Under the pieces are notes generated by a model. It was not told the origin of the DNA and made no database searches. It was given only the letters and a program-made list of their open reading frames with translations. The position numbers and the translations under genes were made by a program. Source: Desulfotignum sp. (GTDB lineage Bacteria > Desulfobacterota > Desulfobacteria > Desulfobacterales > Desulfobacteraceae). Taken from it: a stretch of 40,731 nt of DNA. Location of the stretch: NCBI GenBank assembly GCA_011389555.1, contig JAABUD010000095.1, positions 1 to 40,731 of the forward strand, given 5' to 3'. This document shows, piece by piece, positions 3,326 through 34,910 of the stretch (position 1 is its first letter; each line of letters begins with the position of its first letter).

Positions 3326-6300
3326 ATGACGCAAAAGTTGACATCGAGCAGTGACCTTGTCGGCTCTGTCATGGTTCTGGGTGGTGGAATTGCGGGAATG
3401 CAGTCCGCCATCGATCTGGCCAATTCCGGCTATTATGTCTATCTGGTTGAAAAATCATATGCCATCGGGGGAATGATGGCGCAGCTGGATAAGACCTTTC
3501 CGACCAACGACTGTACCATGTGAGTGATTTCACCCAAACTGGTCGAGGTCGGCCGGCATCTGAATATTGAATTGTTGACGAATACAGAACTTTTGGAACT
3601 GGCGGGGGAGCAGGGGAATTTTACGGCCAGAATCAGGGAAAATCCAAGATATGTAGACATATCCAAATGCACATCCTGTGGCGAATGTACCAAAGTTTGT
3701 CCAGTGGATGTTTCCAGTGAACATAACCAGGGGTTGAATGACCGTAAGGCCATTTTCAAACAATATGAACAAGCCATTCCCGGGGCGTTCGGGATTTCCA
3801 AACGGTCGGTGGCCCCCTGTAAAGCCACCTGCCCGGCCCATGTGTCCATTCAGGGGTTTATCGCCCTGATGCAGCAGGGCAAATATGCGGAAGCGCTGAA
3901 ATTGTTCAAGCAGGAACACCCGTTTCCCGGATCCTGCGGCCGGGTGTGTCACCATCCCTGCGAATCGGAGTGTACCCGGGGGGATGCGGACCAGCCCCTG
4001 GCCATTCAGTACCTGCACCGGTTCCTGTCGGATCTGGATTTTGAACAGGATGCGCCGTGGGTACCGGACATCAAGGAAAAACGGGAAGAGAAAGTCGCCA
4101 TTATCGGTTCCGGCCCTGCCGGGCTGACGGCGGCCTATTACCTGGCCCAGGAAGGTTACCAGGTCACGGTCTATGAAAAACTGCCGGTCAAGGGCGGCAT
4201 GATGGCCGTGGGGATTCCGGAATACCGGCTGCCCAAGGCGGAACTCGACCAGGAGATCGCCGTGATCGAAGCCTTAGGGGTGACGATTGAAACCGGGGTG
4301 GCGTTTGGTACGGATATTACCCTGGACAGCCTGAAAAAAGACGGATTTTCCGCCGTGTTCATGGCTACGGGGCTGCATGGTTCCCGGAGCCTGGGGGTCA
4401 AGGGCGAGGACCTGAAAGGAATTCTCAAGGGTACGCATTTTCTGCGGGATGCCGCTTTGGGAACAGCGGAAAAGCTGACCGGGAAAACCGTTGTCATCGG
4501 CGGCGGGAATGTGGCTGTGGACGTGGCACTCACGGCCCGGCGCCTGGGGTCGGAAGAGGTCACCATGGTATGCCTGGAAAAGCGTGATGAAATGCCGGCC
4601 TGGGATTACGAGATCGAAGAAGCCCTGGAAGAAAAGGTCCACATCGTGAACAGCAAGGGGCCGCTGCGTTTTTATGGCAATGATGACGGGCGGGTGACGG
4701 ATGTCTCTTTCCAGGAATGTACCTCGGTATTTGATGAAAACGGACGGTTCAATCCTCAGTATGATGACTGTCAGCTTACATCGTACGAGGCGGACACCGT
4801 GATTGTGTCCATCGGCCAGATGGGGGAGACCGATTTTGCCCAAGATCAGGGCATTGCATTGACCCCGCCCGGCGGATACGAGGCGGATCCGGTCACGTTG
4901 CAGACCCCTGTTGACTGGGTGTTTGCCGGCGGAGACGCGTTTTATGGTCCCAAATCCGTGGTGGATGCGGTGGCTTCCGGTAAGACGGCTGCGGAAAGTA
5001 TTCACCGGTTCATCAACGGGTTGGACCTGGCCGAAGGCCGGGAAAAATCCTGGGAATATGACAAACCGGAAATCACGGATGTTGCCCACGTCCCGAGAAT
5101 GCAGCCGGAAAAACTGCCGCCGGCCCAGCGGGAAGGCAATTTTAAAGAAGTCACCCAGGCGCTTGCCAAGGAACTCATTGATCAGGAAGCGGCCCGGTGC
5201 CTGTCCTGCGGTATCTGTTCCGAGTGTTACCAGTGCGTGGAGGTCTGCCTGGCAGAGGCTGTGGATCACGATCAGGTGCCGGAGGTCAGGGATGTCAGGG
5301 TGGGATCGGTGATCATGACCACGGGCGCGGACACGTTTGATCCCACGGACCAGGATGACACCTATATGTACAAACGATCCCAAAATGTCATGACCTCTCT
5401 GGAATTCGAGCGGATTCTGTCTGCCGGCGGCCCCACCATGGGGCATCTGGTTCGGCCTTCCGACGGCAGGGAACCGGAAAAGATCGCCTGGCTTCAGTGT
5501 ATCGGTTCCCGGGATACCAACCGGTGCGGCAATGGATATTGCTCGTCGGTGTGCTGCATGTATGCCATCAAGGATGCCATGATCGCCAAAGAGCATTCGG
5601 AAAAAGAGCTGGATACCGCCATATTCAATATGGATATGCGGACATTTGGCAAAGATTATGAAAAATATTATCTCAGGGCCGCAGACCAGGACGGGGTGCG
5701 GTTTGTGAAATCCCGGATCCATTCCGTGGTGGAGGAACCGGGAACCGACAACCTGATTTTGAAATATGTGGATGACCAGGGCCGGATCCAGCAGGAAGTG
5801 TTTGACATGGTGATCCTGTCCGTGGGGCTGACCATCCCCAAAGACAGTGCGGATCTGGCAAAACGCATCGGCGTGGCGCTCAATCCGTACAATTTTGTCA
5901 AGACGGAGACGTTCAACCCTCTGGCAACCAGCCGGCCCGGTGTGTATGTGTCCGGTACGTTCCAGGGACCCAAAGATATCGCATCTTCGGTGACCGAAGC
6001 TTCGGGTGCGGCCTGTGCTGCCGGCCGGCACCTGGCCCCGGCCCGTCACACCCTGACGAAAACCGTGACACTGCCCACGGAACGGGATGTCCTGGGTGAA
6101 GACCCCCGGGTGGGTGTGTTTGTGTGCAAATGCGGGATCAACATCGCCGGGGTGGTCGATGTGGATGATGTGGCGGCATATGTGCAGAATCTGCCCAATG
6201 TGGTGTATACCGGTGAAAATCTGTTCACCTGTTCCCAGGATACCCAGGTGTCCATCAAGGATATCATCGACGAACACCAGCTCAACCGGGTGGTGGTGGC

Positions 6301-7771
6301 CTCCTGTACCCCCAAAACCCATGAAGGGATTTTCATGGATACGCTGGAGGAAGCCGGCCTGAACAAATATCTGTTTGAAATGGCCAATATCCGGAACCAG
6401 GACTCCTGGATGCATTTTCAGGAACCGGACAAGGCCACTGCCAAGGCCAAGGATCTGATCCGCATGGCCGTGGCCCGGGTCAGCACCCTGGGACCGCTGC
6501 ATGACAAAAAGATCACCATCATTGACAAGGCCCTGGTCATCGGCGGGGGCATCGCCGGCATGACTTCGGCAAAGGCTCTGGCAGATCAGGGATTTCACGT
6601 CACGCTGCTGGAGAAAGAAGATACTCTGGGGGGCCTGGGACGGCGACTGCACCATACCATCGAAGGCGATGACATCCAGGCGTTTGTCAAAGAGCTGGCC
6701 GATGCCGTGGAAACCCATGAGCACATCGATGTGCTCAAACAGGCCCTGGTGGTGGAATTCGGAGGGTACAAAGGCAATTTCAACACCGAGGTGCTGGTGG
6801 GGACTGCCATGAAGCAGAAAAAGATCGATCACGGTGTGATGATCGTGGCCACGGGCGGTGGCGAGTACCAGCCCACCGAATATCTGTACAATGACAGCGA
6901 TGCCGTGGTGACCCAGCTGGAACTGGCGGACCGGCTGGCAGACAGCAAACTGGGCAATCCGGACCGGGTGATCATGATCCAGTGCGTGGGATCCAGAAAC
7001 GAGACCAATCCCAACTGTTCCCGGATCTGCTGCCAGAATGCCGTGAAAAACGCCATTGCCATCAAGGAACAAAGCCCGGATACGGATGTGTTTATTCTGT
7101 ATCGGGACATGAGAACCTATTCCATGATGGAGGAGTATTACACCAAAGCCCGGAACATGGGCGTGATCTTTTCCCGGTTCAGTAAAGATGATCCGCCCCG
7201 GGTGGAAAAATCGGCCGGCGGCGGACTCACCGTCACGTTCATGGATCATGTGCTGGGGCAGTATATTGAGGCGGATGCCGATCTGGTGGCGTTGTCCGCC
7301 GGGGTCACGGCTGCGGACACCCGAGAACTGTCCCAGATCATCAAGGCCCAGCGCAATTCGGAAGGGTTTTTCATGGAAGCCCATGTCAAGCTCCGGCCGG
7401 TGGACGGGGGCACGGAAGGGGTGTTCATCTGCGGCACGGCCCACGGGCCCAAGCTGATCACGGAAACCGTGGCCCAGGCCATGGCTGCCGCATCCCGGGC
7501 CGCCACCTATCTGTCCCAGGAGTTTCTGACCCTGTCTGCGGTGGTGGCGGAAGTGGATCAGGATCGATGCGCTTCCTGCCTGGTCTGTGTCCGATCCTGT
7601 CCCTATCATGTGCCGGTAATGGATGAAAGCGGGGTTTCGTACATCGACCCGGCCCTGTGCCAGGGTTGCGGGGTATGTGCATCGGAATGCCCGGCCAAGG
7701 CCATCAAGCTCAACTGGTACGAAGATGACTCATTGCTCAGCAAGGTGGAATCCCTGCTGGAGGAGGTATGA
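3326..7771 (+). CDS. hdrA: Giant HdrA-NfnB-HdrA fusion flavoprotein, selenocysteine-containing (UGA 3521-3523)
   Basis: 1,481 residues when UGA at 3521-3523 is read as Sec66. N-terminal FAD Rossmann fold [16 protein letters not shown] (about 14-30) leads to [18 protein letters not shown]. The paralog at 28246 has NDCSM-C-IISPKLVEAGRH there, so the residue replaces the conserved HdrA cysteine. Next come a CxxCxxCxxxC ferredoxin site (C115-C125) and an embedded NfnB/GltD-type unit (about 160-570; [10 protein letters not shown] near 257 and [13 protein letters not shown] for NAD(P)H). Then a cysteine cluster [13 protein letters not shown] (about 625), a second HdrA part with [10 protein letters not shown] (about 930), another Rossmann fold [10 protein letters not shown] (about 1070) and a C-terminal 2x[4Fe-4S] domain (about 1415-1460). 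Known HdrA role: flavin-based electron bifurcation hub. It is first in operon A, followed 1 nt later by mvhD1. Start chosen at ATG 3326 over GTG 3323 by Shine-Dalgarno spacing. Confidence 0.9.
3521..3556 (+). promoter_or_regulatory. Sec codon UGA and SECIS-like hairpin of hdrA1
   Basis: Fifteen nucleotides after UGA (3521-3523) comes CTGGTCG (3539-3545), loop AGGT (3546-3549), CGGCCGG (3550-3556). This is a 7-bp stem including two G-U pairs. An AGGU apical loop at this distance matches the bacterial SECIS type seen in E. coli fdhF. Confidence 0.75.
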
Positions 7772-7772: not shown

Positions 7773-8222
7773 ATGACAAAAGAATTTGAACCGGTCATTC
7801 TGGCATTCTGCTGTAATTACTGAGGGTATTCCGCTGCGGACCTGGCAGGTTCCATGAGGCTGAAAATACCGACAAATTTCAGAATTATCCGGGTTCCCTG
7901 TACCGGAAAGGTGGATATCATCCACATTCTGCGCGCTTTTGAAAAAGGGGCCGACGGGGTGTATGTGGTGGGATGCATGGAAGGGGACTGCCATTTCAAC
8001 GAGGGCAATTTCAGAGCGAGAAAACGGGTGGAACAGGCTGCCAAAGTTCTGGAAAAAATCGGAGTCGGCGGAGACCGGGTGAGGATGTACAACCTGTCTT
8101 CCGGTGAAGGCCCCCTGTTTGCCCAGTATTCCACGGAAATGGTCAATCTGATTAAAAAAATGGGGCCCAGTCCCATTAGACTGGCAAAACAAGGCAAGAC
8201 CCAAAAGGCCGATGCTGCCTGA
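7773..8222 (+). CDS. mvhD: MvhD-family FeS subunit, selenocysteine-containing (UGA 7821-7823)
   Basis: 149 residues, starting MTKEFEPVILAFCCNY-U-GYSAADLAGSMRL; the UGA is codon 17. In the MvhD family this motif is CCxxCxYxxADxAG, so Sec replaces the second cysteine of the CNxC pair. Later landmarks RVPCTGKVD, GADGVYVVGCMEGDCHFNEGN and RVRMYNLSSGEG are those of the methyl-viologen-reducing hydrogenase delta subunit. MvhD carries a [2Fe-2S] cluster and passes electrons between HdrA and a partner, here probably MetFV or a dehydrogenase, since no hydrogenase gene is nearby. Sec forms of this subunit are known in methanogens (VhuD). The start lies 1 nt after the hdrA1 stop, with GGAGGAGG inside the end of hdrA1, indicating translational coupling. 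Confidence 0.92.
7821..7862 (+). promoter_or_regulatory. Sec codon UGA and SECIS-like hairpin of mvhD1
   Basis: After UGA (7821-7823) the segment GGACCTGGCAGGTTCC (7838-7853) can fold with GGA/TCC and CC/GG pairs, one bulged U and a UGGCA apical loop. Positions 7838-7862 are identical, 25 of 25 nt, to 32852-32876 after the UGA of mvhD2, while the flanks differ. Confidence 0.65.
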
Positions 8223-8259
8223 ACAAGAACTATTTTAACCGCCTAAGCAAGAGGTGAGC

Positions 8260-8928
8260 ATGATAATAGCAGAGAAAAAACCCATTGAAGAGATTGTCCG
8301 GGAAGTCGAGGCCTATGACCGCATTCTGGTGCTGGGATGCAATGAATGCGTCACGGTCTGTGAGGCCGGGGGTAAAAAAGAGGTGGAGGTCCTGGCATCG
8401 GTGCTTCGAATGAATTTCATGGCCCGGGATCGTGAAAAAACCATAGATGAACGGACCCTGGAGCGTCAGTGCGACCACGAATATCTGGAAGAAATCCGGG
8501 ATGTGGTGGATGAGTATGATGCCATTGTGTCTCTGGCCTGCGGTGTGGGCGTGCAGTTTGCTGCGGAAAAATACATGACCACACCGGTGTTGCCGGGGGT
8601 CAATACGGTTTGTCTGGGCGCCAATGAAGACAGAGGCCTGTGGACGGAACGGTGCCAGGCCTGCGGGACGTGTGTCCTGGCTCGTACCGGTGGCATCTGT
8701 CCGGTGTCCCGGTGTGCCAAACGGGTGCTCAACGGCCCCTGCGGAGGGGCCACCAATGGCAAGTGTGAAATTTCCAAGGATACGGACTGCGCCTGGCAGC
8801 TGATCATCGACCGGTTGAAAGCCCTGGGTACGATGGAAGAGTACGAAAAAGTCGCCCCTGTGAAAGACTGGTCCACTGACCGGGCCGGCGGGCCCAGAAC
8901 CGTAACCAGGGAGGATGTGAAAATATGA
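8260..8928 (+). CDS. metV: MetV, methylene-tetrahydrofolate reductase partner subunit
   Basis: 222 residues. N-terminal MIIAEKKPIEEIVREVE, then VLGCNECVTVCEAGGKKEVE, then a cysteine-rich C-terminal region: CQACGTC, GGICPVSRCAK, LNGPCGGATNGKCEI and KDTDCAW. This is the zinc/FeS-binding MetV domain (annotated MTHFR C-terminal domain) that forms a complex with MetF in acetogens. It probably links MetF flavin chemistry to the HdrA/MvhD electron relay in the cytoplasm. An in-frame GTG at 8254 exists, but ATG 8260 matches the start of the paralog at 33290 and has AAGAGGTGA just upstream. The end overlaps metF1 by 4 nt (ATGA). Confidence 0.9.
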   Translation: MIIAEKKPIEEIVREVEAYDRILVLGCNECVTVCEAGGKKEVEVLASVLRMNFMARDREKTIDERTLERQCDHEYLEEIRDVVDEYDAIVSLACGVGVQFAAEKYMTTPVLPGVNTVCLGANEDRGLWTERCQACGTCVLARTGGICPVSRCAKRVLNGPCGGATNGKCEISKDTDCAWQLIIDRLKALGTMEEYEKVAPVKDWSTDRAGGPRTVTREDVKI

Positions 8929-9857
8929 GCGAATATGTAAGCGACAGCAGACTGGAACGTGTGATGAAGGCAGGACATCTGGGAGTGACGTCTGAATGCG
9001 GACCTCCCCGGGGCAGTGATCCGGAGGGGATCAAGAAAAAAGGACTGCTGATCAAGGATCACGTGGATTCGGTGAATGTCACGGACAACCAGACCGCCAT
9101 GACGCGCATGTCGTCTCTGGCCGCCTGTGTTCATTTGAAGCTGCTGGGGGTCGAACCGGTCTTGCAGATGGTGACCCGGGATCGAAACCGGGTGGCACTG
9201 CAAAGTGATATCCTGGGGGCCGCGTCATTTGATATTCCCAACATGCTGTGTCTGTCCGGAGATCATCAGAGTTTCGGGGACTGTGCCCAGGGGCAGAATG
9301 TGCATGACCTGGATTCCATGCAGCTGGTGCAGACCGTCCGGTATATGCGGGATGAAGGCAAGTTCCTGGGCGGAGACGATATCAAGCGGCCGCCCAGACT
9401 TTTTGTGGGGGCTGCGGCCAATCCGTTTGCCGATCCGTTTGAGATCCGGGTGCCGCGGCTGGCCAAAAAAATTGCGTGCGGTGCGGAATTCATCCAGACC
9501 CAGTGCATCTACAATATCGACAAGTTCAAGGAATGGATGCGAAGGGCCGCGGATCGGGGGTTGACGGAAAAGACCTTTATCATGGCCGGCATGACACCCA
9601 TGAAGTCCGTGGGTATGGCCAAATATATGAAAAACAAGGTGCCGGGCATGGATGTGCCCGATGAAATCATCCAGCGGCTGTCAGGCGTGGAAAAAAAGAA
9701 CCAGGCAAAAGAAGGCATCGACATCTGCGTGGAGCATATTCAGGAACTCAAGGAAGTTCCCGGAATCGCGGGTTTTCATATCATGGCCATCGAATGGGAG
9801 GAAAAAGTGCCGGAAATTGTCGAAAGAAGCGGGCTTTATCCGAGACCGGAAGTTTAG
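8925..9857 (+). CDS. metF: MetF, 5,10-methylenetetrahydrofolate reductase
   Basis: 310 residues of the MTHFR TIM-barrel family. Landmarks: GVTSECGPPRG with the catalytic-type Glu, DSVNVTDNQTAMTRMSS, QMVTRDRNR, MLCLSGDHQSFGD (GD pair at the flavin/folate site), AAANPFADPFE, GAEFIQTQCIYNI and FHIMAIEWEEKVPEI. Reaction: interconversion of methylene-THF and methyl-THF. In a sulfate reducer it can run in the oxidative direction of the Wood-Ljungdahl pathway. Overlaps metV1 by 4 nt, with an AGGGAGG upstream. Last gene of operon A, followed by a terminator. About two-thirds of landmark residues are shared with metF2 at 33984. Confidence 0.93.
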   Translation: MSEYVSDSRLERVMKAGHLGVTSECGPPRGSDPEGIKKKGLLIKDHVDSVNVTDNQTAMTRMSSLAACVHLKLLGVEPVLQMVTRDRNRVALQSDILGAASFDIPNMLCLSGDHQSFGDCAQGQNVHDLDSMQLVQTVRYMRDEGKFLGGDDIKRPPRLFVGAAANPFADPFEIRVPRLAKKIACGAEFIQTQCIYNIDKFKEWMRRAADRGLTEKTFIMAGMTPMKSVGMAKYMKNKVPGMDVPDEIIQRLSGVEKKNQAKEGIDICVEHIQELKEVPGIAGFHIMAIEWEEKVPEIVERSGLYPRPEV

Positions 9858-12764: not shown

Positions 12765-12830
12765 AACCCGGGACCCGGAGAAATTCAGGGAATTCAAATG
12801 ATGAATGACAACAATACAGGAGAAGTCAAA

Positions 12831-13370
12831 ATGTTTAAAAGAATCGTGTTATTGATGCTGGCCGCAGCCATTCTGGTGCCGGGCAGCCTGTTTGCGGCAG
12901 ACTATGCACACCGCCTGGAAATCAAAGACATGACCGTGTTCTGGACCCTGGACGGGGATCAGCTCCAGATGGAATTGAGCGCCAAAACCACGGGCTGGGT
13001 TTCCATCGGCATCGATCCGGAAGATGCCATGGGCGGGGCGGATATCATTATCGGGGCCGTCAAGAGCGGCAAGGTGAGAATCGAAGACCATTTTGCGGAC
13101 AGAAAACGGGGGCATTCTTCGGATGAAAAACTGGGGGGGACCAATCAGGTCATGGATCCGGCAGGAAATGAAGAAGACGGTGTGACCACCATTTCCTTCA
13201 CCCGTCTGGTGACGGCATCGGAACAATGGGACAAGCCCATCCGCACCGACGGCAAGACAAGGGTCATGTTCGCCTTTGGGACCGGCAGAGATTCCTTTAT
13301 CGCCGGTCACCGGTTCCGGACGGTGTATGACATCGATTTTGTCACAGGTGATGCCGTCAAGGTCAAATGA
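12831..13370 (+). CDS. Exported DOMON-domain protein
   Basis: 179 residues. A signal peptide MFKRIVLLMLAAAILVPGSLFA precedes a domain with strands WTLDGDQLQMELSAKTTGWVSIGI, MGGADIIIGAVKSGKVRIED and DGVTTISFTRLV. These are DOMON-fold signatures (haem- or sugar-binding beta sandwich related to the cytochrome domain of cellobiose dehydrogenase and ethylbenzene dehydrogenase gamma subunit). It is probably periplasmic and may bind haem b. Start ATG 12831 was chosen because it gives a clean signal peptide and has AGGAGA 7 nt upstream; an ATG at 12798 is in frame. The stop overlaps the SCO1 start by 4 nt. Confidence 0.82.
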   Translation: MFKRIVLLMLAAAILVPGSLFAADYAHRLEIKDMTVFWTLDGDQLQMELSAKTTGWVSIGIDPEDAMGGADIIIGAVKSGKVRIEDHFADRKRGHSSDEKLGGTNQVMDPAGNEEDGVTTISFTRLVTASEQWDKPIRTDGKTRVMFAFGTGRDSFIAGHRFRTVYDIDFVTGDAVKVK

Positions 13371-14311: not shown

Positions 14312-14401
14312 GACGTGCAGCCATGTCTTCATTGTGATACCATACTGCCAGATCCCATTGAATGATTTCATCAAAGAACATAACCAGCTTGAGAGGCTGT
14401 C

Positions 14402-16635: not shown

Positions 16636-16650
16636 TAAAAGGAGTTGTTT

Positions 16651-16932
16651 ATGACATCTGAATCCCATATCGTGGAATACAAAACCCTGGGGCTGACCCT
16701 GGCGGCCCTGGTGGTGATGACCGCCGTGACCGTGGGGGCCGCATCCATCGATCTGGGCTGGGTCAATGTCTGGATCGCCCTGTTCATCGCATCAATCAAG
16801 GCCGGCATCGTGCTGATGGTGTTCATGCACATGCGATTCGAAGGTCCCCTGCTGCGGTGGTCGTTTCTGGCCACCGTGCTGTTTCTGGCCGTCATGATCG
16901 GTTTTATTTTCTGGGATGTGGCGTTCAGGTGA
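16651..16932 (+). CDS. Cytochrome c oxidase subunit IV-type small membrane protein
   Basis: 93 residues, three hydrophobic segments (LTLAALVVMTAVTVGAASI, VNVWIALFIASIKAGIVLMV, LRWSFLATVLFLAVMIGFIF) with the conserved KAGIVLMVFMHMRFE stretch. This pattern belongs to the prokaryotic COX IV family (CtaF/CoxD), a small accessory subunit. AAAAGGAG lies 6 nt before ATG 16651. It sits between subunits III and II, an order seen in A2-type oxidase operons. Confidence 0.9.
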   Translation: MTSESHIVEYKTLGLTLAALVVMTAVTVGAASIDLGWVNVWIALFIASIKAGIVLMVFMHMRFEGPLLRWSFLATVLFLAVMIGFIFWDVAFR

Positions 16933-16941
16933 GGAGGAGGC

Positions 16942-25965: not shown

Positions 25966-26844
25966 ATGAATTTAAAAGAATCTTTGGAAAAAAAGAGATT
26001 TGTCGTGACTTCTGAAGTTCAGGCCCCTCTTGGCGATGATGAACCTGAAGCACTGGTGCAGAGCCTGAGCAAGGTCCGGGGGCGGGTGGATGGCGTGTCC
26101 GTGTCCGACGTGGAACTCGAAGGCGTGGTGGGGGACAGCGTGCAGACCTGTGACCTGCTGCTGAAAAACCGGTTCAATGCCATCTACCAGACCACCACCA
26201 GAGACAAGAACCGGTATCAGCTCCAGAAAGATCTGACCTCGGCCCACGAGGTGGGAGTGGATAATCTGCTGGTGTTCACCGAGGACTACCGGATTTCCGG
26301 GGACAGTCTTCAGGAAACCATGTTTTTTCATGTGGATTCGGGCAAGCTGGGATCGGTTCTGGATCACCTGCGCCAGGGGGTATCCATCGAGGGCAACGAC
26401 CTGGGTAAAAATCTGGAATTCACCCTGGGATCGGGTGTGGAAACCCCCTGGGGAAAACAGATGCCCAAGCGGGGAATGGAGGAGATGGAGGATATGCTCA
26501 ATGTGGGGGCCGGCTATTTTCTCACCACCCCGATCTTTGACGTGGATCAGTTTGAAAAGTTCATGAAACAGGTGCAGCCGTTCCGGGTGCCGGTGATCGC
26601 CGAGGTGATGATCCTGCGGACTGCGGGCATGGGAAAATTTCTGAACCGCCATTTCAAATCCGGGCTGGTTCCCGAGTGGGTGATCCAGAAACTGTTGACC
26701 TCACCGGACAAAACAAAAGCCAGCATCGAACTGTTTGCCGATACGGTCAAAAGCCTCAAAGATATCTGCCAGGGAGTGCACATCATCACCATCGGCGGAG
26801 AGGACAAGCTGGCCCAGTACCTGAATGCGGCCAAACTCCGGTGA
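25966..26844 (+). CDS. Divergent MetF-like (MTHFR superfamily) protein
   Basis: 292 residues. FVVTSEVQAPLGDDEPEAL keeps the N-terminal catalytic-type Glu (E17), and TTRDKNRYQLQKDL matches the TRDRNR block of MetF1/MetF2. But the MLCLSGDHQ flavin/folate block is replaced by LLVFTEDYRISGDS, and the C-terminal MAIEWEEKVPEI motif is absent. Thus it is a third MTHFR-fold paralog, more distant than metF1 and metF2. It could be a methylene-THF reductase with altered cofactor, or a structural or other folate-binding subunit. AAGGAGG precedes ATG 25966. It is second in operon B, next to hdrCB. Confidence 0.8.
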   Translation: MNLKESLEKKRFVVTSEVQAPLGDDEPEALVQSLSKVRGRVDGVSVSDVELEGVVGDSVQTCDLLLKNRFNAIYQTTTRDKNRYQLQKDLTSAHEVGVDNLLVFTEDYRISGDSLQETMFFHVDSGKLGSVLDHLRQGVSIEGNDLGKNLEFTLGSGVETPWGKQMPKRGMEEMEDMLNVGAGYFLTTPIFDVDQFEKFMKQVQPFRVPVIAEVMILRTAGMGKFLNRHFKSGLVPEWVIQKLLTSPDKTKASIELFADTVKSLKDICQGVHIITIGGEDKLAQYLNAAKLR

Positions 26845-26906: not shown

Positions 26907-28193
26907 ATGGCAGAGGCAATCAAGATCGACACCCTTGATGGTGAACTCAAGGAAGCGGTGCTGGACAAGGTGCCGGATGCAAATTTTGATCTGTGCCTGA
27001 CCTGCGGCACCTGCACCGGCGGGTGTCCGGCATCGGAGCAGTTCGGCATGGATCCCAGAAAACTGATCCGCATGCTCAATTTCGGCATGGATGAAGAGAT
27101 CATGAAATCGGACTGGAAATGGGTATGTTCCATGTGCGGCCGGTGCCAGCTGGCCTGTCCCATGAACATCAATATTCCCAAACTGATTTACAACATCCGG
27201 GCAAGGGTGGCCCGGGAAAAGCGTCCCAAAGGCATTTTAGGCTCCTGCGACCAGCATATCCGCACCGGGTCGGCCATGGGTGCGGCCAAAGAGGATTTTC
27301 GATTCACGGTTCTGGACGTGGCCGAGGAGATCCGGGAAGACCATCCCGGATTTGAAGACCTGGAAGTGACCGTGGACCGGGTCGGCGCCCACATGGTGCT
27401 CAATCAGAACTCCAGAGAGCCGGTCACCGAGCCCGAGGAGATGGGGCCCCTGTGGAAAATCCTGCACACGGTCGGGGCGGACTGGACGTATCCATCAGTC
27501 ATGTGGGCCGGTGAAAACTATTGCTTGTTCCTGGCCGACGACGAGGGATGGCGTTACATTATCGAGGAGTTTGTCCTGCATGTGGATAACAACCTCAAAA
27601 GTCCCCTGGTGGTCAATACGGAGTGAGGTCACTCCTATTTTGCAATCCTGGAGGGATTGCGTAAGTACAAGATACCCCACAAGTTTGAACTGATCACCAT
27701 TATCGAGCTGTACGCTCAATGGATCAGAGAAGGCAAACTAAAGGTGAATTCAGACTGGAACAAGGAGATCGGTGCGAAATTCACGATACAGGATCCCTGC
27801 AACATCGCCCGGAAAAGCGGGTCCAACAAGATCGTGGATGATCTTCGGTTTGTGGTGAAAACCGTGGTGGGCGAAGAGAATTTCATCGATACCGTGCCCA
27901 GCCGCATGAACAATTACTGCTGCGGCGGCGGGGGCGGTGCCCTGCAGGCGGGTTTTCCGGACCAGCGGCGGGCCTACGGCAAAATCAAGTTCAACCAGAT
28001 CATGGCCACAAAAGCGGACTACGTGATCGCCCCCTGCCACAACTGCCACGGCCAGATCGAGGATATCGGCCACCATTACGGCGGCAATTATCACGTGGTC
28101 CATCTGTGGACCATCATCTGCCTGGCCATGGGGGTTTTGGCGGATACTGAACGCACTTATCTCGGCCCGGATCTGGCCGACGTGGGGCTTTGA
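26907..28193 (+). CDS. HdrC-HdrB-type fusion, selenocysteine-containing (UGA 27624-27626)
   Basis: 428 residues with UGA read as Sec240. HdrC-like part: two [4Fe-4S] motifs, C30-C33-C36-C40 (CLTCGTCTGGC) and C74-C77-C80-C84 (CSMCGRCQLAC). HdrB/HdrD-like part: VVNTE-U-GHSYFAILEG, where family members have ECGHAY, then a full CCG motif with C298 (DPCNIARKSG), C338-C339 (NYCCGGGGG) and C377-C380 (APCHNCHG). CCG cysteines hold the noncubane [4Fe-4S] clusters that reduce heterodisulfides in HdrB. Here Sec replaces the first CCG cysteine of the first domain. Likely the electron-accepting or disulfide-handling subunit for HdrA2. GGGGGG upstream of ATG 26907. Confidence 0.92.
27624..27660 (+). promoter_or_regulatory. 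Sec codon UGA and SECIS hairpin of hdrCB
   Basis: UGA at 27624-27626; after 15 nt GCAATCC (27642-27648), loop TGGAG, GGATTGC (27654-27660). Seven perfect base pairs with GG in a 5-nt loop: the cleanest stem of the five. Confidence 0.82.
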
Positions 28194-28231
28194 CCCCAAG
28201 GGGGACTCAATGCCCCAAGTGGGACTCAATG
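28194..28231 (+). repeat. 19-bp tandem duplication in the hdrCB-hdrA2 gap
   Basis: CCCCAAGGGGGACTCAATG (28194-28212) is followed at once by CCCCAAGTGGGACTCAATG (28213-28231); one base differs. Each unit ends in ATG. It begins directly after the hdrCB stop; the true hdrA2 ribosome site AAGGAGGG follows at 28233-28240. Confidence 0.9.
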
Positions 28232-28245
28232 CAAGGAGGGATGAC

Positions 28246-31200
28246 ATGACCGAAATAGAAAAAGGATCGGTAATGGTGGTCGGAGCCGGTATCGCCGGTA
28301 TCCAGGCGTCCCTGGATCTGGCGGATTCCGGGCACCTGGTCTATCTGGTGGATAAAAATACCGCCATCGGCGGTACCATGGCCCAGCTGGACAAAACTTT
28401 TCCCACCAATGACTGCTCCATGTGCATCATTTCCCCCAAACTGGTGGAAGCCGGGCGCCATCTCAACGTGGAGCTGATGACCATGAGCGGCATCGAATCC
28501 GTGGAAGGGGAGGCCGGCAGTTTTTCCGTGACCCTGAAGGAAAATGCCCGGTATATTGATATGGACAAATGCACGGCCTGCGGCGAATGCGGCAAGGTGT
28601 GCCCGGTGACCCTGCCCAACCGGTTCGACGAAAATCTGGGAGAGCGTAAAGCCGCGTTCAAACTCTATCCCCAGGCCATGCCCTCGGCATGGGCCATTGA
28701 AAAAACCGACACGGCTCCCTGCCGCCTCACCTGTCCGGCCGGGCTCAATGTGCAGGGGTATGTGCAGATGGTCAAGCAGGGGAATTATCAACAAGCCCTG
28801 GAGATCATCATGGAACAGCTGCCTCTGCCGGGCGTGCTGGGCCGGATCTGCCCCCATGAATGTGAGGATGCCTGTCGCCGGTGTCAGGTGGAGGCCCCGG
28901 TGGCCATCCGGGATCTCAAGCGACTGGCCGCGGATCAGTACGATCCCAGGCAGATCGAGATCCCCTGTGATCCGAAAATCGGAAAAAAAGCGGCCATCAT
29001 CGGTTCCGGCCCGGCCGGGCTGTCCTGTGGGTTTCATCTGGCGAAAAAAGGGGTGGATGCCGTGATTTTCGAGGCCCTGCCCAAACCCGGCGGCATGCTC
29101 CGGGTGGGGATTCCGGACCACCGGCTTCCGCCTTCTGTGCTGGACAAAGATATCGAGGTGATCACCAACCTAGGCGTGCTGATCCACTGCAATCAGCGAC
29201 TGGGGGACGATGTCACCGTGGACAGCCTGGTGGCCGAAGGATTCGATGCCGTGTTTCTGGCCCTGGGCGCTCACAAAGGACTGTCCTTGGGCATACCCGG
29301 CGAAGATCTCGCCGGCGTGCGCCAGGGCGTTGATTTCCTGCGGGAACTCAACCTCACCGGTGAAACCGGGGTGGGGAAACACGTAGGTATCATCGGCGGG
29401 GGCAATGTGGCCATTGATGTGGCCAGATCCGCGGTGCGCCTGGGGGCAAAAACCGTCACCATCCTATACCGGCGGACCCGAAAGGAGATGCCGGCCTGGG
29501 AAGAGGAGATCTGCGCCGCAGAAGACGAGGGCGTGGCCATCACCTACCTGGCTGCCCCCCAGATGGTCCTGGAAAAAGACGGCCGGGTGGCGGGTCTGCG
29601 GGGGATCCGAATGGAGCTCGGCGAACCCGATTCCTCGGGCCGGCGCCGGCCCGTGCCGGTTCCGGAAAGTGAATTCGATCTTCCCATCGACCAGCTCATC
29701 TGTGCCATCGGCCAGCAGCCCGACATCTCGGTGCTCGAAGATCTGGCGGATGTGACGATCTCCCGGTGGAACACCACCGAGGTGAACCCGGTCACCCTGG
29801 CAACGGACCGGCCCGGCGTGTTTGCCGGCGGGGACCTGCAGACCGGGCCGGGCGTGGCCATCGGTGCGGTGGCCGCCGGCATGGAAGCGGCGGAATCGAT
29901 CTTCCGCTATCTTTCCGGCGAAGATATGGCGGATGGCCGGGATGTGCCGATGATTGACGAACCGGTATACCGCCCGGTGGATCCGGATATGCCGCCTGAA
30001 ACCCGGTACCGGATGCCGGAGCTGCCTTTTGAAAAGCGGGTCGGCAATTTCGACGAGGTGGAACTCGGGTATGACCCGGCCGACGGGCAGAAAGAAGCAG
30101 CCCGGTGTTTGAACTGCGGATACTGCTCCGAGTGCATGCAGTGCGTGGATGCCTGTCTGGCCGATGCCGTGGATCATTTCATGGTGCCAAAAACCCGCAC
30201 CGTTCAGGTGGGAGCCATTATTCTGGCCCCGGGATTCACCCCGTTCGAACCCAAAGCGATGGTCACCTATTGCTACGGCCACAGTCCCAATGTGATGACC
30301 TCCCTGGAATTTGAACGGATCCTGTCCGCTTCAGGCCCGTTTGCCGGGCACCTGGTGCGGCCGTCGGACCAGGAGGAGCCGAAAAAGATTGCCTGGCTCC
30401 AGTGCGTGGGCTCCAGAGACATCAACAAGGGGGATCATGCCTATTGTTCCGGGGTGTGCTGCATGTACGCCTCCAAACAGGCGGTGATCGCCAAAGAGCA
30501 TGCCGGTGAAAACCTGGACTGCGCTATTTTCTTTATGGATATGCGTACCCACGGCAAGGAGTTTGACAAATACCAGATGCGGGCCGAAGACGATGCCGGG
30601 GTGCGGTATGTGAGATCCCGCATCCATTCGGTGTTCCCGGAGCCCGGGGACCGGTACCGGCTGGTGTATGCCACCGAGGCCGGGAACCTGGCCGAAGAAA
30701 TTTTCGACATGGTGGTGTTGTCCATCGGACTGGCACCCAACACAGAGGCAAAAGAGCTGGCCGGCAGGCTGGGCATCGACCTGAACCGGCACGGGTTTGC
30801 CGCCACAACCGACCTGGTGCCTGTGGAAACCTCCCGGGACGGCATCTACGTGTGCGGCACCTTTCAGGAACCCAAGGATATCCCGTCTTCGATCATGGAA
30901 GCCTCGGCCGCGGCGGCCACCGCATCCATGGCCATGGCCGGCGACCGCTGGACCCTGACCCGCACCCGGGAACTGCCGCCGGAAATCGATGTGGCCGGAG
31001 CCGCCCCCCGCATCGGGGTGTTTGTGTGCAACTGCGGCATCAACATCGGCGGGGTGGCGGATGTGCCGGCGGTGCGCGATTACGCAAAAACCCTGCCTTA
31101 TGTGGTGCATGTGGAAGACAACCTGTTCACCTGTTCCCAGGATGCCCAGGACCACATGAAGCAGGTGATCGTGGAAAACGACATCAACCGGGTGGTGGTG

Positions 31201-32730
31201 GCGTCCTGCTCACCCAGAACCCACGAGCCCCTGTTCCAGGAGACCATCCGGGATGCCGGGCTCAACAAATACCTGTTCGAGATGGCCAACATCCGGGACC
31301 AGAACACCTGGGTGCACATGAGTCAGCCGGAAAAAGCCACGGCAAAGGCCAGGGACCTGGTGCGAATGGCCGTGGCCAAGGCCGCGTTCGTGGAACCGCT
31401 GCACCAGGTGAGCCTGCCCATCAAAAAATCCCTGCTCGTGCTGGGCGGGGGTGTGGCCGGTATGGAAGCGGCCCGCATGGCATCGGCCCAGGGCGTGGCC
31501 GTGCACCTGGTGGAACAGACCGGGGTGCTGGGCGGGATCGCAAGGCAACTGAACTTCACCTGGCAGGGAGAGCCGGTCGCCCCGTATCTGGAAACCCTGG
31601 TGGAAGCGGTCCGAAAAGACCCGGGCATCACTGTGCACCTGGCCACCCGGGTGGCCCGCACCACCGGTTCCAAAGGTAATTTCACCACCACCCTGGCACC
31701 TGCAGACAAAGCAGGCCAAGACGGCCCGGAAAGCTCTGGCGGTGACATTGTCATCGAGCACGGGGCCGCGGTCATTGCCACCGGCGGCAGGGAATTTCAG
31801 CCCGATGAGTATCTGTACAAAGACCATCCGGATGTGCTCACCCACCTGGACATGGATGCGGCGTTCCGGGAAAACGACCCCCGCATTGAAAAAGGGCGCT
31901 CTTTTGCGTTCATCCAGTGCGTGGGCTCCAGAAACGAAGCCCATCCCTTCTGCTCCAGGGTGTGCTGCACCCACAGCCTCAAGTCCGCCATCTCCCTGAA
32001 AAAAATGGACCGCCGCAAACGGGTGTTCGTGATCTTTCGGGATATCCGCTCTTACGGCTTCAGGGAAGATCTGTACCAGCAGGCCCGGGATCTGGGGGTG
32101 CTGTTCATCCGGTACGATCTGGAACGTATGCCCGAACTGGAAAAGGACAGTCAGGGAAGCCTGAGACTTTCCGTGTTCGACCCGGTGCTCCAGATGCCCG
32201 TGACCATTGTCCCGGATCTGGTGGTGCTGGCTTCCGGCGTAGTGCCCGGCGACAACAAAGCCCTGTTTGAAAAATTCAAGGTGCCGGTGAACAGCGACGG
32301 ATTCCTGGTGGAAGCCCATGCCAAGCTGCGGCCCGTGGATTTTGCTTCGGACGGCCTGTTCGTGGCCGGACTGGCCCATTATCCCAAACCCCTGGAAGAA
32401 AGCATTGCCCAGGCAAGGGCGGCCGTGTCCCGGGCCATGACCATCCTGTCAAAGGATGCCCTCATGGTGGGGGGGATTGTGGCATCAGTGGAAAAGGAAA
32501 AATGCGCGGTGTGCCTCACCTGTGTGCGCACCTGCCCCTATGGCATCCCTTTTATCCACGAAGAGGGATACGCGCAGATCGAGCCGTTCGAGTGCCACGG
32601 ATGCGGTGCCTGTGTGGCGGAATGCCCGGGCAAGGCCATCACGTTGAATCATTTCACGGACCGGCAGCTCATCGCCAAAACCGATGCCCTGTTTGAAACC
32701 CATCCGGAAATCGAGGAGGCGGTATCATGA
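28246..32730 (+). CDS. hdrA: Giant HdrA-NfnB-HdrA fusion flavoprotein, cysteine form
   Basis: 1,494 residues, same architecture as the module A protein. N-terminal VVGAGIAGIQASLDLA and NDCSM-C60-IISPKLVEAGRH (Cys where hdrA1 has Sec). Ferredoxin site C109-C119 (CTACGECGKVC). Embedded NfnB/GltD unit with [12 protein letters not shown] (about 249), VGIIGGGNVAIDVA and VFAGGDLQTGPG. Cysteine cluster CLNCGYCSECMQC (about 621), VCNCGINIGG (about 925), second Rossmann fold LVLGGGVAGM (about 1063), and C-terminal 2x[4Fe-4S] (about 1420-1466). Proposed hub splitting electrons between NAD(P)H, ferredoxin, HdrCB and MetFV. Start ATG 28246 has AAGGAGGG 5 nt upstream; an in-frame ATG at 28210 lies in the tandem repeat. 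The end overlaps a possible mvhD2 start by 4 nt. Confidence 0.95.
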   Translation: MTEIEKGSVMVVGAGIAGIQASLDLADSGHLVYLVDKNTAIGGTMAQLDKTFPTNDCSMCIISPKLVEAGRHLNVELMTMSGIESVEGEAGSFSVTLKENARYIDMDKCTACGECGKVCPVTLPNRFDENLGERKAAFKLYPQAMPSAWAIEKTDTAPCRLTCPAGLNVQGYVQMVKQGNYQQALEIIMEQLPLPGVLGRICPHECEDACRRCQVEAPVAIRDLKRLAADQYDPRQIEIPCDPKIGKKAAIIGSGPAGLSCGFHLAKKGVDAVIFEALPKPGGMLRVGIPDHRLPPSVLDKDIEVITNLGVLIHCNQRLGDDVTVDSLVAEGFDAVFLALGAHKGLSLGIPGEDLAGVRQGVDFLRELNLTGETGVGKHVGIIGGGNVAIDVARSAVRLGAKTVTILYRRTRKEMPAWEEEICAAEDEGVAITYLAAPQMVLEKDGRVAGLRGIRMELGEPDSSGRRRPVPVPESEFDLPIDQLICAIGQQPDISVLEDLADVTISRWNTTEVNPVTLATDRPGVFAGGDLQTGPGVAIGAVAAGMEAAESIFRYLSGEDMADGRDVPMIDEPVYRPVDPDMPPETRYRMPELPFEKRVGNFDEVELGYDPADGQKEAARCLNCGYCSECMQCVDACLADAVDHFMVPKTRTVQVGAIILAPGFTPFEPKAMVTYCYGHSPNVMTSLEFERILSASGPFAGHLVRPSDQEEPKKIAWLQCVGSRDINKGDHAYCSGVCCMYASKQAVIAKEHAGENLDCAIFFMDMRTHGKEFDKYQMRAEDDAGVRYVRSRIHSVFPEPGDRYRLVYATEAGNLAEEIFDMVVLSIGLAPNTEAKELAGRLGIDLNRHGFAATTDLVPVETSRDGIYVCGTFQEPKDIPSSIMEASAAAATASMAMAGDRWTLTRTRELPPEIDVAGAAPRIGVFVCNCGINIGGVADVPAVRDYAKTLPYVVHVEDNLFTCSQDAQDHMKQVIVENDINRVVVASCSPRTHEPLFQETIRDAGLNKYLFEMANIRDQNTWVHMSQPEKATAKARDLVRMAVAKAAFVEPLHQVSLPIKKSLLVLGGGVAGMEAARMASAQGVAVHLVEQTGVLGGIARQLNFTWQGEPVAPYLETLVEAVRKDPGITVHLATRVARTTGSKGNFTTTLAPADKAGQDGPESSGGDIVIEHGAAVIATGGREFQPDEYLYKDHPDVLTHLDMDAAFRENDPRIEKGRSFAFIQCVGSRNEAHPFCSRVCCTHSLKSAISLKKMDRRKRVFVIFRDIRSYGFREDLYQQARDLGVLFIRYDLERMPELEKDSQGSLRLSVFDPVLQMPVTIVPDLVVLASGVVPGDNKALFEKFKVPVNSDGFLVEAHAKLRPVDFASDGLFVAGLAHYPKPLEESIAQARAAVSRAMTILSKDALMVGGIVASVEKEKCAVCLTCVRTCPYGIPFIHEEGYAQIEPFECHGCGACVAECPGKAITLNHFTDRQLIAKTDALFETHPEIEEAVS

Positions 32731-32783: not shown

Positions 32784-33197
32784 ATGAACAGCCAGATGTT
32801 TGAACCCAGGATCGTTGCATTCTGCTGCCAGTACTGAGCGTACGCCGCAGGGGACCTGGCAGGTTCCATGAGGCTGTCTTATCCGGCGGATGTCAAGATC
32901 ATCCAGGTGCCGTGCACCGGCCGGGTGGATATGATTCATCTGCTCACCGCCCTGGAGGACGGGGCGGACGGCGTGTACGTGGCCGGCTGCCTGGAAGGGG
33001 AATGCCATTACCTGGAAGGCAATTACAAGGCCCGCCGCAAGGTGGAATCCGTGAAAAAAACATTGACCGAACTGGGCATCGAACCGGAGCGGGTGACCAT
33101 GTACAACCTGTCCTCGGCCCAGGGTGCCCGGTTCGCCGAGATCGCCAACGACATGGTGCAAAAGATCAAAGACCTGGGCCCCACCCCGGTCCGTTAA
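32784..33197 (+). CDS. mvhD: MvhD-family FeS subunit, selenocysteine-containing (UGA 32835-32837)
   Basis: 137 residues from ATG 32784: MNSQMFEPRIVAFCCQY-U-AYAAGDLAGSMRL, with UGA as codon 18. Later VPCTGRVDMIHLLTALEDGA, AGCLEGECHYLEGNYKARRK and MYNLSSAQGARFAEIA match MvhD. Sec stands at the same place as in mvhD1. Two starts are credible: ATG 32727, inside the hdrA2 stop with GGAGG upstream, adding 19 polar residues; or ATG 32784 with AAAGGAG. I prefer 32784 because it matches the paralog N-terminus. Role: [2Fe-2S] electron transfer between HdrA2 and MetFV. A large palindrome lies between this gene and metV2. Confidence 0.9.
32835..32876 (+). promoter_or_regulatory. Sec codon UGA and SECIS-like hairpin of mvhD2
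   Basis: Same fold as in mvhD1: GGACCTGGCAGGTTCC at 32852-32867, 14 nt after UGA 32835-32837. Positions 32852-32876 are identical to 7838-7862. Confidence 0.65.
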
Positions 33198-33203
33198 CAA
33201 AAT

Positions 33204-33265
33204 GGGGTCAGGCCTTGCATTATTGACTTTTATCTCCAAAAGTCAATAATGCAAGGCCTGACCCC
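33204..33265. repeat. 62-bp perfect palindrome (REP/MITE-like), 28-bp arms
   Basis: The left arm 33204-33231 begins GGGGTCAGGCCTTGCATTAT and the right arm 33238-33265 is its exact reverse complement; loop ATCTCC (33232-33237). The terminal GGGGTCAG is shared with the palindrome at 34923. Repeats beginning GGGGTCAGG(C/T)CTTGCA are, to my knowledge, common in genomes carrying REP-associated (Y1/RAYT) transposases; no such transposase lies in the window. It sits in the 92-nt gap between mvhD2 and metV2, inside the operon. Confidence 0.92.
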
Positions 33266-33289
33266 GAAACCCGAAAAGGGAGGGTAAAA

Positions 33290-33967
33290 ATGATAGTTGC
33301 AGATCGCAAGTCTCTGGATGAAATACTGGGGATGGTGGCAGACAAGGACAAGATCCTCATCCTCGGGTGCAAGGGATGTGTGACGGTGTGTAATGTGGGC
33401 GGGCTCAAGGAGGCCGAAGTACTGGCCTCCTCCCTGAGGATCGCCCGCAAGAAACAGGGGTGCCCGGCCGAGGTGGAACACCAGGTTCTGGAGCGTCAGT
33501 GCGACAATGAATATGTGGCCCAGCTGGCGGACAGCGTTGCCGACTACCAGGCCGTGGTGTCCATGGCCTGCGGCGTGGGCCCCCAGTTCCTGTCGGAAAT
33601 GTATCCGGACCAGGTATTTTTCCCGGCCGTGAACACCACTTTTTTCGGCGGCGCGGTCCAGCACGGGGTGTGGGAGGAACGCTGCGCCGGGTGCGGAGCC
33701 TGCGGCATCCACCTGTTCGGGGGGCTGTGCCCTATTGCCCGGTGTGCCAAAAGCCTGCTCCACGGACCCTGTGGCGGATCTTCCAACGGCATCTGCGAGG
33801 TGCACAAGGATACGGCCTGCATCTGGGATGCCATTGTGAAAAAGAAGATGGAAACCGGACACCTGGAGGATCTTTTGGCGGTCAAGCCGCTCAAGGACTG
33901 GCGCACGGCCAGAGACGGCGGCCCCCGGCGCAGCATCAGAGAAGAACTGGTCAAGGGAAACATATAA
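33290..33967 (+). CDS. metV: MetV, methylene-tetrahydrofolate reductase partner subunit
   Basis: 225 residues. MIVADRKSLDEILGMVAD, ILGCKGCVTVCNVGGLKEAE, ERQCDNEY, then the cysteine-rich end CAGCGAC, GGLCPIARCAK, LHGPCGGSSNGICEV and KDTACIW. Nearly every cysteine of metV1 is conserved, so the two are functional paralogs. Role as for metV1: metal/FeS partner of MetF connecting to MvhD/HdrA. GGGAGGG lies upstream of ATG 33290, 24 nt after the palindrome. metF2 follows 16 nt downstream. Confidence 0.92.
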   Translation: MIVADRKSLDEILGMVADKDKILILGCKGCVTVCNVGGLKEAEVLASSLRIARKKQGCPAEVEHQVLERQCDNEYVAQLADSVADYQAVVSMACGVGPQFLSEMYPDQVFFPAVNTTFFGGAVQHGVWEERCAGCGACGIHLFGGLCPIARCAKSLLHGPCGGSSNGICEVHKDTACIWDAIVKKKMETGHLEDLLAVKPLKDWRTARDGGPRRSIREELVKGNI

Positions 33968-33983
33968 TAAGGAGACACATGCC

Positions 33984-34910
33984 ATGACAGCAACCAAATC
34001 AGGCAGCAATCTTGAAAAGGTCCTGACCGCCGGTCATTTTGCCTTTACCGGGGAATGCGGGCCTCCCAAAGGCGCCAATGCAAACCATCTTAAAGAAAAG
34101 TTCGCGTATCTCAAAGGCAACGTGGACTGTGTCAACATGACCGACAACCAGACCGCGGTGGTACGCATGTCTTCCCTGGCCGGGTCGGCCCTGATGGTGG
34201 CAGAGGGCCTGGAACCCAATTATCAGATGGTGTGCCGGGACAGAAACCGCCTGGCCATGATGTCCGACATCCTGGGGGCGTATGCCTTGGGCGTGCGTAA
34301 CATGCTGTGCCTGTCCGGGGACCACCAGAGTTTCGGCAATCACCCGGAAGCCAAAAACGTGCATGACATCGATTCCATGCAGCTCATCGCCCTGGTGAAA
34401 CAGATGCGGGACCAGGGGAAATTTCTGAACGGCGAAGAGATCGACGTGCCCCCGAAAATGTTTATCGGCGCGGCCTGCAATCCCTTTGCCGATCCCTATG
34501 AGTTCCGGGTCCACCGCCTGGCCACCAAAATTGCGGCCGGTGCGGATTTCGTCCAGACCCAGTGCATTTTCAACATGGACAAATTCCGGGATTTCATGAA
34601 ACAGGTGGTGGATATGGGCCTGCATGAACGCGGTTATATCCTGGCCGGGGTCACGCCCATGAAAAATGCGGGCATGGCCAATTTCATGTCCAAATATGTG
34701 CCCGGCATGGATATTCCCGAGTCTCTGATCAAGCGTCTCAAAGGCGTGGACAAACGGGATCAGGCCGAAGAAGGCATCAAAATCGCTTTGGAACAGATCG
34801 AAGAATTCAAACAGATGGATGGGGTGGCCGGCGTCCACCTCATGGCCATTGAATGGGAGCACAAAGTTCCTGAAATCGCCGAACGCGCCGGAGTCCTCCC
34901 CCGGCCGTAA
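33984..34910 (+). CDS. metF: MetF, 5,10-methylenetetrahydrofolate reductase
   Basis: 308 residues. FTGECGPPKGANANHLKEK, CVNMTDNQTAVVRMSS, QMVCRDRNR, MLCLSGDHQSFGN, GAACNPFADPYEFR, GADFVQTQCIFNM and VHLMAIEWEHKVPEI follow metF1 block by block. Interconverts methylene-THF and methyl-THF. Last gene of operon B. Start ATG 33984 has AAGGAG upstream; ATG 33979 runs straight into a stop. A short palindrome follows the stop. Confidence 0.94.
   Translation: MTATKSGSNLEKVLTAGHFAFTGECGPPKGANANHLKEKFAYLKGNVDCVNMTDNQTAVVRMSSLAGSALMVAEGLEPNYQMVCRDRNRLAMMSDILGAYALGVRNMLCLSGDHQSFGNHPEAKNVHDIDSMQLIALVKQMRDQGKFLNGEEIDVPPKMFIGAACNPFADPYEFRVHRLATKIAAGADFVQTQCIFNMDKFRDFMKQVVDMGLHERGYILAGVTPMKNAGMANFMSKYVPGMDIPESLIKRLKGVDKRDQAEEGIKIALEQIEEFKQMDGVAGVHLMAIEWEHKVPEIAERAGVLPRP

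Follow-up and report, generated by a model that had tools for sequence, protein, structure and literature searches.

How anaerobes pay for the oxidation of methyl-tetrahydrofolate (methyl-THF), and which second carrier works with the heterodisulfide reductase (Hdr)-type methylene-THF reductase, are the questions raised by two operons in a 40,731-nucleotide (nt) stretch of DNA from Desulfotignum sp. (assembly GCA_011389555.1, contig JAABUD010000095.1; hereafter the window, meaning the whole stretch, inside which both operons lie). The host is an autotrophic, completely oxidising marine sulfate reducer. Its genome contains CdhC of acetyl-CoA synthase, and in Desulfotignum phosphitoxidans the Wood-Ljungdahl pathway is described as serving both autotrophic growth and the production of acetate from CO2 (PMC4046663). 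The locus probably specifies two isoforms of an enzyme already described, the Hdr-type (type IV) methylene-THF reductase. On this reading it is a new selenium-rich, duplicated variant of that enzyme, and the exchange of its nucleotide-binding module is the property most worth following.

Each operon is built around an HdrL chain, with MvhD, MetV and MetF downstream of both HdrL1 and HdrL2; operon 2 is led by MetF3 and then an HdrC-HdrB fusion, HdrCB, ahead of hdrL2 (Table 1). An earlier note on this DNA had described two HdrA chains of ~1,490 residues with a built-in NfnB/GltD reductase, each accompanied by MvhD, MetV and MetF, and Pfam, NCBIfam and phmmer agree. In both chains Pfam and NCBIfam show HdrA flanking the NfnB/GltD module (Fer4_20, Pyr_redox_2), and model NF009410 scores 525 and 531 bits (cut-off 516). 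A phmmer comparison with the HdrA of PDB entry 5odc aligns HdrL1 residues 16–159 with HdrA 147–290 and residues 631–854 with HdrA 293–514, which puts the insertion, the module of ~470 residues, near HdrA residue 291. Beyond it lies a second HdrA copy, residues 925–1103 matching HdrA 2–180 and residues 1299–1479 matching HdrA 467–651. From these match boundaries, the first copy (half a) is without the HdrA N-terminal domain; the second (half b) has that domain, is without the inserted ferredoxin domain and, by alignment, has no equivalent of Cys197. These losses fit the "complementary loss" reported for other double HdrA proteins, Moorella included (PMC9012536). The domain order given in the note holds in that HdrA stands on both sides of NfnB, but its "HdrA N-part" is a thioredoxin reductase (TrxR)-like half, the true N-terminal domain lying in the second half. 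HdrL2 has 1,506 residues from its first ATG and 1,494 from the ATG at 28246, which is probably its start, downstream of an AAGGAGG ribosome site.

This plan is shared with the MetVF-HdrBCA-MvhD complex of Moorella thermoacetica. The Moorella HdrA (1,487 residues, 162.8 kDa) has GltD in an extra TrxR-like domain, with three flavin adenine dinucleotide (FAD) sites and one NAD(P)H site; its second HdrA half is without the inserted ferredoxin domain, and MvhD, MetV and MetF belong to the same unit (PMC9430772). Here too, metV and metF lie in one unit with hdrA and mvhD, and the HdrA follows the Moorella plan with GltD inside the extra TrxR-like domain. Since the M. thermoacetica HdrA has GltD, the contrast drawn earlier with a Moorella enzyme free of embedded NfnB is wrong. 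Nor can the system be called undescribed: the name HdrL was given in 2009 to a fusion of heterodisulfide reductase and glutamate synthase, accompanied by MvhD, in Desulfobacterium autotrophicum (PMC2702500), an NfnB insertion is known from anaerobic methanotrophic (ANME-1) archaea (PMC9012536), and Moorella has the same plan (PMC9430772). The embedded NfnB is common to the Moorella enzyme and to HdrL records of many phyla, which corrects the earlier premise.

The known systems also differ from the present one. In Moorella, HdrB and HdrC are separate, whereas here they are fused and none stands beside operon 1 in the window; Glu is found in both flavin domains rather than in one, and the portion of its description available to us contains no selenocysteine (Sec) (PMC9430772). 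Db. autotrophicum HRM2 likewise has the HdrA/GltD fusion followed by MvhD, with Sec in two of three HdrL, in MvhD and in HdrD4, but the roles proposed are NADH oxidation and sulfite reduction, and the available description draws no link to metVF (PMC2702500). HdrA9-11 of ANME-1 share an NfnB-like insertion of ~500 residues in the HdrA ferredoxin domain and have been connected speculatively with NADPH and MetF, although these genes are not clustered with MetF in the ANME-1 genomes studied there (PMC9012536). The Sporomusa ovata MetVF-HdrCBA-MvhD system has a double HdrA, MvhD, MetV and MetF, with physical contact shown, but its HdrA is 101 kDa and without GltD, and so is nearer to a third, GltD-less operon of this genome, described below (PMC9430772). 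Clusters of metF with HdrABC have been noted in Seep-SRB1g by Murali et al. (PMC10553843). In the portions of the literature available to us, we did not find Sec-bearing HdrL-MvhD-MetVF pairs of Desulfobacterota, an NADH/NADPH split or module swapping described.

HdrL1, MvhD1, MvhD2 and HdrCB each need an in-frame UGA to be decoded, and a conserved Cys is replaced at all four sites. Under the standard code chain 1 closes after 65 codons, and its full length depends on read-through of the UGA at 3521 (residue 66); this codon aligns with Cys72 of HdrL2 and with Cys197 of HdrA. The other UGAs fall in the Cys-rich motifs of MvhD1 (7821) and MvhD2 (32835) and in the TECG motif of HdrCB (27624). The early stop in chain 1, together with single-sequence folds after the four UGAs that are ordinary except in HdrCB (z −0.65, 0.01, −2.23 and −0.82), might be taken to indicate decayed or frameshifted genes instead of selenoproteins. 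This is highly improbable, because the UGA is conserved. With same-family loci sorted into operon 1 or operon 2 by context and identity, Sec occurs in 25/25 operon-1 HdrL and Cys in 21/21 operon-2 HdrL; in complete operons Sec is kept in 19/19 MvhD1 and 20/20 MvhD2, and UGA is present in all 35 HdrCB homologues of at least 53% identity whose sequence spans the site, a number that includes four repeat contigs. Nine more HdrCB matches, at 38% identity or less, comprise one with TECG and eight without a motif match. The genome moreover contains SelB (335 bits), tRNA-Sec (76.9 bits) and SelA (593 bits), all above cut-offs. We therefore reject the pseudogene reading. Sec in HdrA, HdrL, MvhD and HdrD has already been reported for Db. 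autotrophicum (PMC2702500), which also speaks against decay and means that Sec per se is not new.

Structural evidence for Sec insertion varies between the four genes. Compared with 200 column shuffles, support for a hairpin after the UGA is strong in HdrCB (z −9.2; 0/200), moderate in HdrL1 (−2.9; 3/200) and weak in both MvhD2 (−1.6; 12/200) and MvhD1 (−0.8; 38/200); the Cys control HdrL2 gives −2.0 (14/200). No match in the window reaches the Rfam gathering score, and Rfam thus lends no support to a selenocysteine insertion sequence (SECIS). Cys197 of HdrA is a ligand to the N-terminal cluster in the partner copy (PMC9012536). By analogy, Sec66 may be a ligand of the [4Fe-4S] cluster in the half-b N-terminal domain, within the same HdrL1 chain. 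One HdrL1 orthologue (L114, genome G010) has two additional in-frame UGA codons near its C-terminus, with mvhD, metV and metF matches that are split or weak; candidate explanations are decay, strain mixture and assembly error.

In the NfnB part, the glycine-rich motifs for FAD and NAD(P)H, examined here for loss, are intact and invariant across 16 aligned HdrL. The two isoforms differ where the second beta strand of the NAD(P) domain ends: HdrL1 has VCLEKR there and HdrL2 has LYRRTR. YRRT or YRRS occurs in NfnL of Thermotoga and Pyrococcus and in the other solved relatives whose alignments were inspected; HdrL2 has the same YRRT as the NADPH-dependent NfnL. Within the family, LE is found in 24/25 HdrL1 and 0/21 HdrL2, and RR in 1/25 and 21/21, respectively. 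The Rossmann-fold rules, the NADPH-using Nfn enzymes and the NADH-oxidising Moorella HdrA, a congener of which carries CLES, together lead us to read LE as NADH and RR as NADPH, which would make HdrL1 NADH-type and HdrL2 NADPH-type. The Moorella evidence combines CLES in the HdrL of Moorella stamsii (L187) with NADH oxidation by the Moorella HdrA (PMC9430772).

Alternatively, HdrL1 and HdrL2 could be alike in nucleotide use and the LE/RR difference neutral, since specificity is here read from a single short motif. In loci from outside the family, RR is also found next to MetF1-type genes (L070, L072, L110, L141 and L152) and LE next to MetF2-type genes (L083, L109, L138, L140 and L143), and we reject a general rule pairing LE with MetF1 and RR with MetF2, which fails at five loci each way. 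The near-complete separation of LE and RR between the two operon types within the family, the RR of NADPH-dependent NfnL and the other nearest solved relatives shown, and the LE of M. stamsii, whose congener oxidises NADH, nevertheless make neutrality rather doubtful. Two further loci (L149 and L185) have IDPFS at this position instead of LE or RR; candidate readings are a third cofactor type or a lost NAD(P)H site.

The two halves differ in the Glu/Lys signature of a bifurcating flavin. Half a has Glu356 and Lys409 in 46/46 family loci (25/25 of operon 1, 21/21 of operon 2). In half b Lys409 is kept, and position 356 is Ala in HdrL1 (Ala, Ser, Gly or Thr across the family) and Asp in HdrL2. 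The pair is thus E/K in half a and A/K (HdrL1) or D/K (HdrL2) in half b, rather than Glu/Lys in both TrxR-like domains; a single conserved Glu/Lys pair, as in Sporomusa, is present in HdrL1 and HdrL2. By the Glu/Lys rule of PMC9430772, half a alone is predicted to bifurcate.

We infer a complex in this organism and, with it, a cofactor choice, a direction, a second acceptor, bifurcation and a cluster-ligating Sec, which may be arranged as follows. MetF, seated on the Fe-S protein MetV, would interconvert methyl-THF and methylene-THF, and electrons would be exchanged between MetVF and the HdrL chain. The two HdrA halves of HdrL would form an internal pseudo-dimer, in which half a would contribute a TrxR-like FAD domain, the inserted ferredoxin domain and the Cys197 equivalent, and half b the HdrA N-terminal domain, a second TrxR-like domain and the C-terminal ferredoxins. 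Exchange with NAD(P)H would take place at the GltD module, which would be of NADH type in HdrL1 and of NADPH type in HdrL2. Methyl-THF oxidation, at E0′ ~−200 mV, is endergonic by 23 kJ/mol with NAD+ and by 48 with ferredoxin (PMC9430772). From the bifurcating flavin of half a, one stream could pass via GltD to NAD(P)+ and the other to a higher-potential acceptor; the Glu/Lys signature in half a suggests that this second acceptor would pay for the endergonic transfer from methyl-THF to NAD(P)+. In operon 2 it may be HdrCB (HmcF/TmcB/DsrK-like), which could pass electrons on towards DsrC or the membrane. Electron flow would be reversed during methylene-THF reduction, and the enzyme should run both ways in an autotrophic, completely oxidising sulfate reducer. 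Sec would stand for Cys in HdrL1, MvhD and HdrCB. The single coupling machine suggested earlier, linking methylene-THF and methyl-THF to NAD(P)H and one more carrier, is the best reading; ferredoxin, which the note had named as a partner, may or may not take part, the second acceptor in Moorella being reported as other than ferredoxin (PMC13040438).

Several observations weigh against assigning the locus to this enzyme type with such a mechanism. No HdrB or HdrC gene stands beside operon 1 within the window, and the best family scores of HdrCB, to HmcF, TmcB and DsrK, are all under cut-off. Among solved structures, phmmer gives no match to MetV1, and clear structural SECIS support is limited to HdrCB. 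The NADH/NADPH split by operon type fails outside the family, and half b is without Glu356, unlike Moorella, which has Glu/Lys in both domains. NADH-driven methylene-THF reduction is, in addition, reported not to have been observed with the Moorella complex (PMC13040438).

How consistently HdrL keeps company with MetVF also bears on the assignment. Full-length HdrL fusions are common across 59 near genomes, one of them the source of the window, and at least 60 of 148 phylum genomes (own included; counted by eye, three candidates per genome being scored in this draw) have a match spanning query residue 160 or lower to 1150 or higher. An architecture found in dozens of genomes is not due to chance. 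Among 80 chosen relative loci, two of them from the window's own genome, 73 fused HdrL are found; where at least 3 kb lies downstream, MvhD follows in 60/61 and MetV and MetF in 49/61. In the named set, which is the best 80 of 479 confirmed loci and shares at least seven contigs with the chosen relatives (counted here, left out of the motif comparison), there are 71 fused HdrL, and of the 48 with 3 kb downstream MvhD follows in 46 and MetV and MetF in 20. MetV-MetF lies directly upstream in four of the other 28, from Spirochaetes (L180), an uncultured bacterium (L183), Atribacteria (L196) and Clostridiales (L201). In Moorella stamsii the fused HdrL, MvhD, MetV and MetF stand in succession. The order hdrD-hdrL2-mvhD2-metV2-metF2, with MetF3 ahead, is repeated in same-family operon-2 loci as far as contigs extend. 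The fusion is not universal in the family: G019, G027, G029 and G032, for example, have no fused HdrL among the matches listed.

HdrL might instead serve general traffic between NAD(P)H, ferredoxin and thiols, for instance to DsrC, with MetVF merely co-transcribed and using free ferredoxin like the MetFV-type enzyme of Clostridium ljungdahlii, which works with reduced ferredoxin and without Hdr. The absence of downstream MetVF from 28/48 named and 12/61 relative HdrL would be in keeping with this, as would a locus (L074) in which the module was exchanged without MetVF and the Db. autotrophicum arrangement in which HdrL1 is followed by dsrABC and tied to sulfite reduction (PMC2702500). We regard it as unlikely, given that the HdrL-MvhD-MetV-MetF order recurs across phyla, that the operon-1 module and MetVF are both common to a third operon in three genomes, and that MetV and MetF bind HdrA in Sporomusa pull-downs (PMC9430772), which also support the link between HdrA and MetFV proposed in the earlier note. 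An Hdr-type methylene-THF reductase remains our preferred assignment.

A third operon is present in the same genome (G000:C239, locus L124 2850–8920, minus strand), with a MetF-like gene at its head, then a double HdrA, MvhD, MetV and MetF. Its HdrA is without GltD and without Sec (NNCDLC), its MvhD is all-Cys, and no in-frame UGA was seen; a TAG flagged in this HdrA is its terminal stop and not pyrrolysine. Judged by the motifs of the three operons, the cell would have the enzyme in three versions: NADH-type, NADPH-type and GltD-less. The occurrence of the three together, at least in this genome, and the natural module swaps described next offer a testable comparison.

Three other genomes (G009, G011 and G021) each have a third HdrL operon whose GltD module resembles the one in their own operon 1, whereas the HdrA core on either side of it differs. 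G009 and G011 belong to the same genus and are nearly alike, and we count them as one case; G021 is from another genus of the family. In G021 the third HdrL and operon 1 are 90–100% identical in DNA within the module (residue 170 to ~640) and 50–73% outside it, with MetV 95.0%, MetF 98.9% and MvhD 67.0% identical. In G011 the corresponding values are 70–90% inside the module and 51–77% outside, with MetV 81.2%, MetF 90.2% and MvhD 64.6% identical; G009 is similar. These profiles indicate two shared tracts, the module and MetVF, separated by a core and MvhD that are not shared. Across 133 HdrL (matches ending before query residue 1230 were dropped from the motif comparison set), in one FastTree run each for core and module with no shuffled control, the LE/RR state changes 17 times on the core tree and 5 times on the module tree (motif columns excluded), and the Sec/Cys state 4 times on the core tree and 13 times on the module tree. 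The identity tracts and the tree counts together point to the GltD module as an exchangeable cassette that has, on this evidence, moved between HdrA cores many times.

Some of these exchanges show linkage between the module and MetVF; across the full set it is weak. In 68 complete operons, the distances of MetV and MetF correlate with those of the C-terminal HdrA core at r 0.84 and 0.75 and with those of the module at 0.68 and 0.58. Given the core, partial r between module and MetV is 0.30 (0/999 permutations) and between module and MetF 0.15 (3/999), in partial Mantel tests that are lenient on related sequences; with MvhD there is no link (−0.07; 942/999). A general rule that the module travels with MetVF is not supported, the core correlating better and L074 being a counterexample. 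In G028 an operon-1 core carries a module nearest to that of another HdrL of the same genome, and MetVF was not exchanged. A search for the module among plasmids gave 187 records, all below 60% identity. Tentatively, and with somewhat less than even confidence, we suggest that HdrL is a modular bifurcation scaffold, in which GltD is a plug-in NAD(P)H cassette swapped at fixed borders, sometimes with MetVF, so that one cell may have NADH-linked, NADPH-linked and nucleotide-free methylene-THF reductases, and in which the Sec of one HdrA half would ligate the [4Fe-4S] cluster of the other.

Table 1 Genes of the two operons in the window
Feature	Position	Strand	Description
HdrL1	3326..7771	+	1,481 residues; HdrA with NfnB/GltD module inserted at ~residues 160–640; Sec66 (TGA 3521)
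MvhD1/FlpD	7773..8222	+	Sec17 (TGA 7821, CCNYUGYSAAD)
MetV1	8254..8928	+	DUF5981 / MTHFR C-terminal family; alternative start ATG 8260
MetF1	8925..9857	+	MTHFR
MetF3	25966..26844	+	MTHFR family; no MetV of its own; Thr at Gln183 equivalent; adjoins hdrD-hdrL2 in relatives
HdrCB	26907..28193	+	HdrD-like HdrC-HdrB fusion; Sec240 (TGA 27624, NTEUGHSYFA)
HdrL2	28210..32730	+	HdrA with inserted NfnB/GltD module; Cys72 where HdrL1 has Sec
MvhD2/FlpD	32784..33197	+	Sec (TGA 32835, CCQYUAYAAGD)
MetV2	33290..33967	+	MetV
MetF2	33984..34910	+	MTHFR

The MetF proteins differ at the expected active-site positions. Equivalents of Glu28, Asp120 and Gln183, which we take to be the functional residues of MTHFR, are present in MetF1. 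MetF3 and its orthologues keep Glu28 and Asp120 where the sites are covered, with Gln183 replaced by Thr (Asn in L099); with this residue lost, MetF3 may be a docking or modified paralogue. Another MetF-like gene, distinct from MetF3, lies upstream of hdrL1 in some other loci.

Between mvhD2 and metV2 (33204–33265) is a perfect 28-nt inverted repeat with a 6-nt loop, which looks like a repetitive extragenic palindromic (REP)-type or mobile hairpin. The G+C content of positions 28001–32000, over hdrL2, is 0.61, compared with 0.49–0.59 in the remaining 2-kb windows. Between the operons (12798–18511) lies a cytochrome c oxidase cluster (DOMON, SCO1, COX1, COX3 and COX2), found here in a presumed strict anaerobe, and within it, by sequence reading, a UbiA-like protein. 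Downstream of operon 2 and of a glnS-like gene (the latter also by sequence reading), positions 36772–38244 encode an MttB-family methyltransferase with no in-frame amber codon, which could supply methyl groups to the pathway served by the operons.

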